From: Kallipyga massiliensis ph2
GTDB lineage: Bacteria; Bacillota; Clostridia; Tissierellales; Peptoniphilaceae
DNA: 64,000 nt
Assembly (NCBI RefSeq): GCF_000311985.1
Contig: NZ_HE978585.1
Coordinates: 894,247-958,246, forward strand
Reading direction: 5' to 3'
This document shows positions 22,811-29,011 of the stretch, one piece after another. The notes beneath the pieces are model-generated. The model searched no databases. It had not been told where the DNA came from and was given only the letters and a program-made list of their open reading frames with translations. Made by a program: the position numbers and the translations under genes. Numbering within the stretch: position 1 is the stretch's first letter; each line of letters begins with the position of its first letter.

Positions 22811-22830
22811 GGAGAGTGATTCAAGAGTTT

Positions 22831-23871
22831 ATGTCAACAGCGATTTGGCAGGACCAATCAGGCCGGGGCGAGGATACCCCGGCCTTGTTTGGGCATTTGG
22901 ATGAAAATAAAAAACTAATCGAGGACCGCTACGACGTGACCATCCGGGTTAAGGATGGTCAGCTGGAAATTACCGGGGAGGACTACGACCTCCAGGCCAC
23001 CCGGGCCGTCCTCGACTCCATGGAGGAGATTATCCACCGTCAGGACTATGTGACCAAGGAAGAAGTGTCTTATCTTTTGGATGTTCAGGATCAGGATGCC
23101 GATCTTCCGGTGGGGGACATGCTCAAGGATGTCATCGTCACTACTTCCCGGGGCAAGCCCATCCGGGCCAAGACCATCGGCCAGAAGCGGTATGTGGATG
23201 CCATCAATGAGAACGGCTATACCTTCGGGATCGGTCCTGCCGGGACCGGAAAGACCTACCTGGCCATGGCCATGGCCGTCAAGGCCTTTAAGGCAGGCCA
23301 GGTGTCACGGATCATCCTGACCCGTCCGGCCGTGGAAGCCGGGGAGAGCCTGGGCTTCCTGCCGGGTGACCTCCAGGAGAAGATTGACCCCTACCTCCGT
23401 CCACTTTACGATGCTCTTTTTGAAATCCTGGGTAATGACACTTACCTCAAACTCAAGGAAAGGGGCCTGATCGAGGTAGCTCCCCTGGCCTATATGCGGG
23501 GCCGGACCCTGGACAATTCCTTTATTGTCCTGGATGAGGCCCAAAACACCACTCCCCAGCAGATGAAGATGTTCCTGACCCGGATGGGTTACGGGTCCAA
23601 GGCGGTCATCACCGGAGACATTACCCAGGTGGACCTGCCCAATGGGAAGTCTTCCGGTCTGAAAACCATCCAGCATATCCTCCGGGATATTGATGGAATC
23701 GCCTTTTGCTACTTCAACCGGGCGGACGTGGTCCGTCACCCCCTAGTCCAAAAGGTGATCGATGCCTTTGAGAAGTATGAAGGCAGTCAGGGAGGCGGCC
23801 ATGGCCCGGGGAAGGGGTCCCCAAAGAAGGCGAAAGGAGACCGGTCGAAGGACCGGGGAAGGAACAAGTAG
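22831..23871 (+). CDS. PhoH-family ATPase (PhoL-like)
   Basis: 346 residues. An N-terminal KH-like region (KDGQLEITGEDYDLQATRAVL) precedes the ATPase with Walker A GIGPAGTGKTYLAMAMAV and Walker B FIVLDEAQNTT. The C-terminal tail is Gly/Lys-rich. PhoH/PhoL proteins are linked to RNA metabolism and ribosome maturation, and lie next to ybeY in most bacteria. The start is uncertain: AAGGAG at 22809-22814 is 16 nt from ATG 22831, while GTG 22816 is only 1 nt away. Confidence 0.92.
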   Translation: MSTAIWQDQSGRGEDTPALFGHLDENKKLIEDRYDVTIRVKDGQLEITGEDYDLQATRAVLDSMEEIIHRQDYVTKEEVSYLLDVQDQDADLPVGDMLKDVIVTTSRGKPIRAKTIGQKRYVDAINENGYTFGIGPAGTGKTYLAMAMAVKAFKAGQVSRIILTRPAVEAGESLGFLPGDLQEKIDPYLRPLYDALFEILGNDTYLKLKERGLIEVAPLAYMRGRTLDNSFIVLDEAQNTTPQQMKMFLTRMGYGSKAVITGDITQVDLPNGKSSGLKTIQHILRDIDGIAFCYFNRADVVRHPLVQKVIDAFEKYEGSQGGGHGPGKGSPKKAKGDRSKDRGRNK

Positions 23872-23880
23872 GCGGGAAAG

Positions 23881-25269
23881 ATGATCGTAGATATTGATAA
23901 TCGGGATAAAAACCTTAGTCTGAGCCAGGCCCGACGGGACCTCCTGGAGGAGGCCCTGTCGACGGCCCTTTCTATGGAAGGCATTGAGGAGGAGGTCACC
24001 CTCTCCCTGTCTTTCGTGGAGGGGGAGGAGATCCGGACCCTCAACCGGGACTACCGGGGGGTGGATCAGGAAACAGACGTCCTCTCCTTTCCCGCCCATG
24101 AGCCGGAGGAGATTGCGGCCCTGAAGGACCAGGGACGGTTGGCTATCCTGGGGGATATCGTCATCAACCAGGACCGGGTCCGGACCCAGGCTTTGGACTA
24201 CGGCCACTCTGAAGATCGGGAGTCCGCCTACCTGGCTGTCCACTCCCTCCTCCACCTCCTGGGCTATGACCATGAGAGGGAGGAGGATAAGGCGGTTATG
24301 CGGGCCAAGGAAGAGGCGGTCATGGACCGGCTGGGCCTTTCCCGGGAGGCGGAAGTCCCCTTCCACTCGGGCTATGTGACCATCCTGGGCCGGCCCAATG
24401 TGGGGAAGTCCACCCTCCTCAATGCCCTCATGGGGGAAAAGCTCACCATCACCTCCAACAAGGCCCAGACCACCCGAAATGAGATTAAACTGATTTACAC
24501 GGATGACCGGATGCAGGTCATCTTCACCGATACCCCGGGCTACCAGACCCCAAAGAATAAGTTGGGGGAGGCCATGCTCAAGATGAGCCGGGATGCGGTG
24601 AATGGGGTGGACCTGGTCATTTACATCACGGATCCCTCCCCGGAAGCGGGGCGGCTGGATAACCTTCTGCTGGACTACCTGGAAGGGGTAAAGCTCCCCA
24701 AGATCTGCCTCATCAACAAGGCGGATCAGGCGGAGGACCTCCTTCTTTTTGCGGTATCCGACCGCTATGAGAAGATGGGGACCTTCGACCGGGTCATCCT
24801 CTGCTCAGCCAAGGAGGGGGAGGGCCTGGACCGGGTCAAGGAGGCACTCTATGAGGCCCTTCCCCCCGGCCCGGCCTACTACCCGGAGGACATGGTCACC
24901 GACCGGCCCGAGCGCTTTATTGTTGCTGAGCTCATCCGGGAGAAGTGCCTGAAGAACCTGGCCCAGGAGGTCCCCCATGGGATCTATGTGGCCATCGACC
25001 AGATGACTTACCGGGAGACCGGGGACCTGGTGGATATCTATGCCACCATCGTAGTGGACCAGACCTCCCATAAGGGAATCGTCATCGGCAAGGGCGGGGC
25101 CATGCTCAAGAAAATCGGAACCCAGGCCCGGCGGGACATCGAAAACTTCCTCCAATGCCGGGTCAACCTCAAACTTTGGGTTAAAATAGAGAAGAATTGG
25201 CGGCAGAAGGGGCGACTGATTGACTCTTTCGGCTACGGGTCCGATGACCGGGGCCTGAACCAAAACTGA
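23881..25269 (+). CDS. YbeY-Era fusion protein: rRNA maturation factor joined to ribosome-assembly GTPase
   Basis: A single 462-residue frame. Residues 1-~160 are YbeY, with the zinc motif HSLLHLLGYDHERE and TDVLSFP. Residues ~163-462 are Era: G1 GRPNVGKSTLLNAL, switch region TTRNEI, G3 DTPGYQTP, G4 NKAD, G5 CSAKEGEGL, and the KH domain with GIVIGKGGAMLKKIG. The normal Era N-terminus follows the YbeY C-terminus with no stop, start or linker to speak of. In most Firmicutes these are separate neighbours, often with dgkA/cdd between. YbeY acts on 16S rRNA 3' ends and Era binds the same region, so fusion would tie both to one site. Both halves look functional. recO follows 8 bp later. Confidence 0.95.
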   Translation: MIVDIDNRDKNLSLSQARRDLLEEALSTALSMEGIEEEVTLSLSFVEGEEIRTLNRDYRGVDQETDVLSFPAHEPEEIAALKDQGRLAILGDIVINQDRVRTQALDYGHSEDRESAYLAVHSLLHLLGYDHEREEDKAVMRAKEEAVMDRLGLSREAEVPFHSGYVTILGRPNVGKSTLLNALMGEKLTITSNKAQTTRNEIKLIYTDDRMQVIFTDTPGYQTPKNKLGEAMLKMSRDAVNGVDLVIYITDPSPEAGRLDNLLLDYLEGVKLPKICLINKADQAEDLLLFAVSDRYEKMGTFDRVILCSAKEGEGLDRVKEALYEALPPGPAYYPEDMVTDRPERFIVAELIREKCLKNLAQEVPHGIYVAIDQMTYRETGDLVDIYATIVVDQTSHKGIVIGKGGAMLKKIGTQARRDIENFLQCRVNLKLWVKIEKNWRQKGRLIDSFGYGSDDRGLNQN

Positions 25270-25277
25270 GGGGCAGC

Positions 25278-26039
25278 ATGAAGCAGGATTTGAAAAATGT
25301 GGAGGGCCTGGTTCTTCGGGCCTACAACATCAAAGACTCTTCCCGGATCGTGGACCTTCTTGCCCGGGACCAGGGGCGGATTTCCTTCATGGCCCGGGGA
25401 GCAAGAAGGGATAAGTCCCCCTCCCTCAACCTGACCCAACCCTATGTGGAGGGGCGTTATAACCTTCAACCCGGTCGGTCCATATACTATTTCAAGGATG
25501 GGCAAATCCAAAATGCCCACCTGGGTCTCCGCAAGTCCATCCGACGCCTGGCCCTGACGGAGTTTTCCATCGAGGCCCTGACCTCGGTGGTCTTTACAGA
25601 GGGGGACCCCATCCTGTATGATTTCATGGTGACCTATTTGGGGACTGTGGAAGAGGCAGGAGAGAGTGACCTGACCCGGCTCCTTGGCGCCTACCTTTTT
25701 AAGTTGGTTTCCCTGGTGGGTTTCCGGCCCAGCCTAGGCTCTTGCCTGGAATGCGGGGGAGGGGTCAAGCTTCCCCTGGTCTTTGACCTCCATGGCGGGG
25801 GGATGGTCTGCGATGACCACCCGGGCCGGCCCGGCCAAAGAACCCTGTCCATGGACCAGTATCAGGAGCTGGTGGCCTACCTGACCCAACCCTTCCGGGA
25901 GATCCGGGAGGGAAGTCGGGAGGAGAAAGGGGAACTTTACCGGACCACGGCAAGGCTCTGCCTGGCTTATTTTCAAATTCAAACCGGTCGAGACCGGTTC
26001 AAAAGTTTAGCAATGCTGCAAGATCTGGGCCTGGTGTGA
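25278..26039 (+). CDS. recO: DNA repair protein RecO
   Basis: 253 residues: N-terminal OB fold ([32 protein letters not shown]) and helical C-terminus with a zinc site (CLECGG then CDDH, the last ligand being His rather than the usual Cys). RecO helps load RecA at gaps through RecR. It sits directly after the ybeY-era fusion and before glyQ, as in many Firmicutes. Confidence 0.93.
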
Positions 26040-26070: not shown

Positions 26071-26946
26071 ATGCATCTACAAGACATGATACAAAAACTG
26101 ACAAGTTATTGGGCCGACCATGGCTGTGCCATCCTTGAGCCCTACGATGTGGAGAAGGGCGCCGGGACCATGTCCCCCCACACTTTCCTTCGGACCCTGG
26201 ATGCCAGCCCTTGGCATGTAGTCTATGTGGAGCCTTCCCGCCGGCCGGCGGACGGACGTTATGGGGAGAACCCCAACCGTCTCTACCAGCACCACCAGCT
26301 CCAGATCATTCTCCAACCTGCTCCGGACGACATCCAGGACCTCTATCTCAAGAGCCTGGAAGTCATCGGGATTGACCCCCTTGCCCACGACATCCGCTTC
26401 GTGGAGGATAACTGGGAATCCCCCACCCTGGGCGCCTGGGGTGTGGGTTGGGAAGTCTGGTTGGATGGGATGGAAATCACCCAGTTCACCTACTTCCAGC
26501 AGGTCGGTTCCATCCCTCTTGAGGTGGAAGCCGGAGAGATCACCATGGGTCTGGAACGGATCGCCATGTATATCCAGGGGGTCAACAACGTCTTCGACCT
26601 CCAGTGGAATGATGAGCTGACCTATGGGGATATTTTCCATTTGCCGGAATATGAGAACTCCATGTACGCCTTCCAGACGGCCAATGTGGACCGTCTCCGG
26701 AATTTCTTTGAGGAATATGAGAAGGAAGCCCAGGACCAGATCGCCCGGGCCCTGGTCTATCCCGCCTACGACTATGTCCTGAAGTGTTCCCACACCTTCA
26801 ACATCCTGGATGCCCGGGGGGCCATCGCCGTCTCCGAAAGAAACCACTACATCAGCCGGATCCGGGACATGGCCCGTCAGGTTGCCGAACTCTACCTGGA
26901 GAAAAAACAAGGTAAAGAGGAAAAGGAGGAGGAAAGTCATGAATAA
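26071..26946 (+). CDS. glyQ: Glycyl-tRNA synthetase alpha subunit
   Basis: 291 residues, the usual length. Class II catalytic chain with [25 protein letters not shown]-type opening, [17 protein letters not shown] (motif 2 region) and [12 protein letters not shown] (motif 3). It forms an alpha2beta2 enzyme with GlyS. An AGGAGG site precedes the ATG. Its C-terminus is Lys/Glu-rich and overlaps the glyS start by 8 bp. No T-box leader is visible in the 31-bp gap from recO. Confidence 0.97.
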
Positions 26947-29011
26947 GTATTTTCTTGAAATAGGGGTGGAAGAATTTCCCTCCCGCTTTATCGCCTCCAC
27001 CAAGGAACAGCTCATCAACAACGTCCTCAAGATTCTATCAGAGGAGGGTCTTTCTGTAGAAAGCACGCGGATCGAATCCACCCCCCGGCGCTTTGCCCTC
27101 TGGCTGGAGGGTATTGGAGCGGAGGACACGGAAGCTTTCGAGGTCGTCCGGGGCCCCTCGGTCCGGGTGGCCTATGACCAGGAGGGCCAGCCCACCAAAG
27201 CCTTGGAGGGCTTCCTCCGGTCAAAGGGCCTGAGCCCGGACGATGTCTATGTGGAATCCAACGGTAAAGAGGACTATGTCTTTGCAAAAATCACTAAGGA
27301 GGCGGTTTCTCCTGAGAAGGTCTTGAAAAAGGCTATTCCGGAAGCCATCCGGCAAATCTCCAACCCCCGGTCCATGCGTTGGGGAGGGAAGAACCTCCGC
27401 TTTCTCCGCCCCATCCGCTGGCTGGTCTCCCTCTATAACGACGAAGTCCTGGACTTCGACCTGGAAGGGATTCCTGTCGGACGGACGACCAAGGGTCACC
27501 GCTTCCTAGGCCACGGTACGGTGGAAATCACAACGATCGATAGCTATGAGGAGACCTTAAAAGAAGAGTTTGTCATCGTGGATGAGAGCGAACGGCGGAA
27601 CATCATCGTCCGCGGGCTCAACCGCAAGGCCAGAGAGCACGGGGGCCTGCCCATGCATGATGATGACCTCCTGGATGAAGTCGTCTCCATCGTTGAATAC
27701 CCCACCGTCTTTATCGGAGAGATCCCCCAAAACTATCTGGACCTCCCCCAGGAAGTCATTATCACGCCTATGAAGGACCACCAGCGCTATTTCCCTGTGG
27801 TTGATGATGAGGGTAAGCTCCTGCCCTACTTCCTCTCCGTCCGCAATGGGAACGAAGAGGGAATCGAAAATGTGGTGGCCGGAAATGAGAAGGTCTTGGT
27901 TCCTCGCCTGGAGGATGCCAAGTTCTTCTACGACCAGGACCTCTCCCAGGCCCTGGAAGACTACCTGCCCAAGCTGGATGACCTGGTTTTCCATGAGAAC
28001 CTGGGGACCATGCTGGATAAGACCGGGCGTTTGGAATCCCTGACCCGGTCCCTGGCGGAAAATATGGACTGCGGGCCCGAAACCATGGCCGCGGCGACCC
28101 GGGCTGCCCGCCTCTCCAAGGCCGACCTGGTCACCCAGATGGTGGTGGAGTTTACGGAACTCCAGGGAATCATGGGCCGGATCTATGCAGAAAAGAATGG
28201 GGAAGAGGGCCTGGTTGCCCTGGCCATTGAAGAACAGTATATGCCCAAGGGGGCTGACGGCCAGGTTCCCCAGTCTACCCCCGGGATCATCCTTTCCCTG
28301 GCGGATAAAATGGACAACATCGCCGGCCTCTTTGCCATCGGTGTCCGGGTCACGGGTTCCCAGGACCCCTTCGGCCTCCGTCGGGCCGCCAACGGGATCA
28401 TTGACATCCTTTATGAGGCTTCCCTCCATATCAATCTATGGGAGGGCTTCCGGGACGCCCTTGTTCTTTATGTCGAAGAGGAGGGCCTGGTCTTTGACTA
28501 CGATGAGATCATGGAGACCATCTACAACTTCTTCCTGGGCCGCCTCCGGACAAAGATGGATGACCTGGGGATCCGCTATGATGTGATCGATGCGGTCTTT
28601 GCTTCCAAGGAAAAGGACCTCCTCTCCCTGATCAACATGGGGGAGGCCATCGACGGCTACCTTAAGGAAGAGGGGGGTGACCTCCTGATCACGGACTTTG
28701 TCCGGATTGAGTCCCTGGCCAAGAAGTATGAGGGCCAGCCTTTAGTGGAGGAGGTCCTGGAGGATGAGGACCGGGTCCTCTACCAGTCCCTCAACCGGAG
28801 GGAGACGGTTGAAGAAGCCATCGAAAAGGGCCACTATAAGGAAGCCCTGGACCTGCTCAAGGATTGGATGCCCCTGGTCAACGACTACCTGGACAAGACC
28901 ATGATCATGGTGGAGGATGAATCCCTCCGGGCTGCCCGCCTGGCTATGCTCCATACGATCAACGAAGTCATTTCCCGGATTCTGGTTCCTTCGGCCATTG
29001 TTCGAGAATAA
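26939..29011 (+). CDS. glyS: Glycyl-tRNA synthetase beta subunit
   Basis: 690 residues. Starts [16 protein letters not shown], the family N-terminus; contains the HD-like core ([28 protein letters not shown]) and a C-terminal anticodon-binding DALR-like domain. It binds tRNA-Gly for the catalytic alpha chain. GAGGAGGAAAGTC precedes ATG 26939; a longer frame upstream lies inside glyQ and is not the start. Confidence 0.96.

Follow-up and report, generated by a model that had tools for sequence, protein, structure and literature searches.

YbeY, a predicted endoribonuclease, and the GTPase Era, two ribosome assembly proteins that are usually made separately, are encoded in the gut bacterium Kallipyga massiliensis by a single open frame of 462 codons, located in the 64,000-nucleotide stretch of DNA analysed here (the window). 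Judging from sequence comparisons, this fusion is real and inherited and is probably functional, and it probably arose once in the family of Kallipyga, by deletion of the dgkA-PAP2 segment that separates ybeY from era in related genomes. The reading that we consider very likely is that of a functional two-in-one 30S assembly factor born by this deletion, whose halves would load and act together in a 1:1 ratio.

The fused gene and its domains

The fused gene, its parts and its neighbours are as follows (window coordinates).

22816..23871, + strand: phoH/ybeZ (PF02562), 9 nt upstream of the fused gene
23881..25269, + strand: fused ybeY-era gene, open frame of 462 aa, from its translation and profile matches
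23881..24342, + strand: YbeY domain (predicted endoribonuclease activity), aa 1-154 (PF02130, TIGR00043)
24241..24273, + strand: YbeY metal-binding motif HSLLHLLGYDH, aa 121-131, from the translation
24322..24324, + strand: internal ATG (Met148) closest to the Era half, an ordinary YbeY consensus Met
24343..24360, + strand: linker, aa 155-160, bounded by the TIGR00043 and NF000908 models
24361..24870, + strand: Era GTPase domain, aa 161 to about 330 (NF000908, PF01926), with G1, G3, G4 and G5 motifs
24967..25203, + strand: Era KH RNA-binding domain, aa 363-441 (PF07650)
25278..26039, + strand: recO (PF11967, PF02565), 8 nt downstream of the fused gene
26071..29011, + strand: glyQ and glyS (PF02091, PF02092), remainder of the usual operon

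The YbeY half matches Pfam PF02130 at residues 17-151 (E 4e-41, 140 bits, cut-off 25) and NCBIfam TIGR00043 at residues 18-154 (143 bits, curated cut-off 45). The Era half, at residues 161-452, spans model positions 1-291 of 291 of NCBIfam NF000908 (346 bits, cut-off 237), and contains matches to Pfam MMR_HSR1 (PF01926) at residues 166-280 and to KH_2 (PF07650) at residues 363-441 (72 bits). The three-histidine metal motif of YbeY, HxxxHxxxxxH, is intact (H121, H125, H131), and HSLLHLLGYDH is invariant among five aligned fusions. Also intact are the GTPase motifs G1 GRPNVGKS (170-177), G3 DTPG (217-220), G4 NKAD (279-282) and G5 SAK (309-311), together with the GKGG loop of the KH domain (403-406). 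About six residues separate the TIGR00043 and NF000908 matches. The frame and the Pfam and NCBIfam matches thus bear out what the sequence-only reading had proposed, an in-frame YbeY-Era fusion of 462 residues with intact motifs and a very short linker. As in the published architecture, YbeY is N-terminal to a complete Era, and no internal stop interrupts the frame that they share.

The AlphaFold2 model, generated from a 23-row alignment, has a mean pLDDT of 80.8, with both domains mostly confident and YbeY mostly at 84-95. An 11-residue loop (151-161) joins the last YbeY helix to the first strand of Era. The pTM for the whole fusion is 0.47, so the model does not fix the placement of the two domains relative to each other. 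Among solved structures, the closest are those of Era and YbeY (9jkp, 1ega, 7y7o, 1oz9).

No second Era or YbeY was found in a search of the K. massiliensis assembly. Separate YbeY (E. coli YbeY, B. subtilis YqfG) and Era (E. coli, S. aureus) share the families, the motifs and the phoH/recO operon with the fused gene, but form two proteins in those organisms and one chain in Kallipyga.

Distribution and origin of the fusion

An Era match is present in 126 of the 130 genomes of Kallipyga's family, and in 10 of these the gene is fused: all three Kallipyga, all five genomes of genus g23, and single genomes of genera g14 and g35 (together G000, G001, G002, G015, G024, G036 and G121-G124). The fusion proteins are 55-59% identical between genera, the frame is kept throughout the ten genomes and four genera, and a return to separate genes is seen in none of the ten. 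The fused sequences form one group in the Era tree (90/50) and one clade in the tree of concatenated YbeY and Era (98/93), where the unfused genus of G125 is sister to the fused clade (100/99 for the fused sequences plus G125).

In G125 the order is ybeY - dgkA/PAP2 - era (L177), as it is in Helcococcus massiliensis (L038). A gap of about 1.1 kb lies between ybeY and era in many other genera, with cdd also inside it in the cases read; the rest of the family carries dgkA-PAP2, often with cdd, between the two genes. None of the 10 fused genomes has a match to the dgkA model PF01219, which is found in 114 of the other 120 genomes of the family; the six unfused genomes without it are three of genus g15 and three that are less than 82% complete. 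Because G125 keeps the ybeY-dgkA/PAP2-era order and dgkA is missing from every fused genome, we infer that a single deletion probably gave rise to the fusion in this family. The event would have taken place in the ancestor of the four Kallipyga-related genera, where it would have removed dgkA-PAP2 along with the stop codon of ybeY and the start codon of era, joining both frames. Fused clade and G125 also have in common an unusual H in the F/Y-H-S-G start of Era, a position at which K or R is usual among relatives.

The fused clade lacks any member of DAGK_prokar (PF01219), a family that includes the Gram-positive undecaprenol kinase. Genus g15 (L178, G016) has apparently lost dgkA independently, and there a cytidine deaminase-like gene lies alone between ybeY and era.

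The sequence-only reading could not tell how widespread the fusion is, and the survey gives part of the answer: one clade of ten genomes and four genera in the family, with no further true fusion, at the thresholds used, in a class-wide draw of 391 genomes (of which 15 are assigned to Kallipyga's family) or a phylum-wide draw of 398 genomes, thresholds below which weaker or more divergent fusions could fall. Class- and phylum-level matches that resembled fusions (span about 1-455, open frame above 450) all contained, once translated, a stop between ybeY and era, and are pairs of closely adjacent genes in the same frame. The Selenomonadaceae and Clostridia matches checked in a scan of named genomes were separate genes, tightly adjacent or overlapping.

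As an architecture, YbeY-Era is known, rare and patchy. According to the 2023 Era review (PMC10582724), YbeY N-terminal to Era is the most frequent Era fusion and has been reported in several Clostridia, some Selenomonadales and Thermoleophilum album (its Fig. 3B). In the available text the published fusions have the same order in one polypeptide, with no difference seen from that of Kallipyga, and groups are named, not Kallipyga itself; the present analysis adds the single origin within a family together with the loss of dgkA-PAP2 (PMC10582724). The Kallipyga fusion thus adds members to an architecture already described, and what is new is the clear single origin in the family.

Several unannotated records of phage collections (H1-H5) contain neighbouring ybeY- and era-like stretches and look like bacterial DNA. 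In four MAG contigs titled Bifidobacterium breve (L066, L076, L085, L089), Era resembles that of Acidimicrobiia/Actinomycetota freshwater contigs, and the titles are probably wrong.

Functional coupling or by-product of gene loss

As separate proteins, YbeY and Era bind one another as well as uS11, they show a genetic interaction, and extra Era relieves the loss of YbeY (PMC5101352, PMC10582724, PMC6912228). Since the separate proteins associate with each other and with uS11 and Era can relieve YbeY loss, the fusion is most naturally read as a single chain that would bring both to the 30S platform. The fused protein is the only YbeY and the only Era of the cell. By analogy with the separate factors, its Era half most likely binds the 3' region of 16S rRNA (h45 and flanks) through the KH domain under the control of GTP, which would hold the YbeY half beside the platform and uS11, and both factors would then load and act together at a fixed 1:1 ratio. 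Such a ratio, which the sequence-only reading had anticipated, follows from a single chain, on the condition that neither an internal start nor cleavage intervenes. It is disputed whether, in Bacillota, YbeY itself makes the 3' cut in 16S rRNA (cf. the B. subtilis YqfG/RNase R work). The shared step, if there is any, is more likely platform assembly or installation of uS11 than this 3' cut, because the review places Era ahead of final 3' processing and argues against its direct participation there (PMC10582724). The same source counts the working of YbeY-fused Era among its open questions.

A competing explanation shares the anatomy and the origin with this two-in-one assembly factor and differs from it in functional coupling only: loss of dgkA would have joined ybeY and era, and the joined gene would have been tolerated without advantage, its halves working independently on a flexible tether. 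We give it a substantial probability, though somewhat below even. It accords with the absence of dgkA from all fused genomes, with a linker that varies in length and sequence among the fused genes, and with the single origin, which implies no repeated selection within Kallipyga's family.

It also accords with other fusions in the family. G030 encodes a three-domain YbeY-DgkA-PAP2 fusion of 392 aa (L155:1184-2362, - strand), and several g24 species have an in-frame YbeY-DgkA-PAP2 fusion of about 450 aa (up to 455 aa; L173-L176). As in YbeY-Era, the frame of ybeY continues there into the next gene of the operon, but the partner is a membrane protein of the diacylglycerol/undecaprenol kinase family whereas that of Kallipyga is Era. 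Since relatives join YbeY to DgkA-PAP2, a shared biochemical step is not needed for a fusion of ybeY, and these nearby cases caution against taking any fusion of operon neighbours as proof of one. The suggestion that the Kallipyga fusion may be direct evidence of a shared step was therefore too strong, both because the fusion is likely a by-product of losing the intervening dgkA-PAP2 and because the relatives fuse YbeY to a partner with no evident biochemical link.

Against a neutral by-product, the frame has been held over deep divergence in 10 of 10 genomes, with no observed return to separate genes. The occurrences in other lineages given in the review (PMC10582724) likewise count against it, indicating that such a fusion can, at the least, be accepted repeatedly.

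A stronger version of coupling, in which the fusion would be an adaptive nuclease-GTPase machine whose short link couples the GTP cycle of Era to the positioning of YbeY, appears unlikely to us. If true, the fusion would naturally trap a step of 30S platform assembly that YbeY and Era carry out jointly. A single-origin clade, an unfused sister genus and the cultured K. massiliensis offer a clean before/after comparison, and the Kallipyga fusion, in which the two factors are tied to each other, lends itself to cryo-EM of a 30S precursor.

Internal initiation at Met148

The 1:1 ratio expected of the two-in-one assembly factor would not be fixed if the gene gave, next to the fusion, a separate Era from an internal start at Met148 (24322). 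Met140 and Met148 are the only ATGs close to the junction, and Met148 sits in the last YbeY helix. An ATG occupies its column in 9 of the 10 fused genes, which would suit such a dual product, but G036 lacks it, and the residue is a YbeY consensus Met (28 of 40 standalone YbeY from Kallipyga's family and its neighbours), so that Met148 needs no special explanation.

The strength of Shine-Dalgarno-like matches was compared with that of synonymous versions in which these codons were redrawn according to each gene's own codon usage. The K. massiliensis match upstream of Met148 (-5.8 kcal/mol) is weaker than about 96% of its synonymous versions, while true era starts in unfused relatives average -8.6 kcal/mol by the same measure. 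Good matches exist in G001 and G124 (-11.8 and -11.5 kcal/mol), in favour of a dual product, but no selected Shine-Dalgarno was detected at Met148, in that no fused gene has its site in the strongest 22% of synonymous versions. By the YbeY consensus and by the synonymous-codon comparison, Met148 is therefore ordinary and was rejected as a special internal start. The internal start that had been raised as a way of producing a separate Era thus has no sign of selection at the sequence level, and some separate Era could still be made; a dual product seems to us quite improbable.

An open and constrained junction

The same open junction is found in K. gabonensis (L036), whose fusion protein is 88% identical to that of K. 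massiliensis, in one MAG (L035) and in three further genera, represented by seven species (open frame at loci L035, L036, L006-L010 and L096-L100). The published genome of K. massiliensis is based on 454 reads, which tend to carry errors in homopolymers; nevertheless, these independent genomes with the same frame, together with the dN/dS across the junction, exclude the error that the sequence-only reading had warned of, and leave a sequencing or assembly artefact that conceals a stop between ybeY and era with a negligible probability.

Around the junction (codons 132-170), the comparison of K. massiliensis with K. gabonensis gives a dN of 0.10 and a dS of 0.83 (ratio about 0.12), and 15 of the 23 differences there fall at third codon positions. 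The corresponding dN/dS values elsewhere in the fusion are 0.087/0.64 for YbeY and 0.053/0.74 for Era. The low ratio, near those of the two halves, therefore points to purifying selection on the junction as protein, and supports translation through it into one polypeptide.
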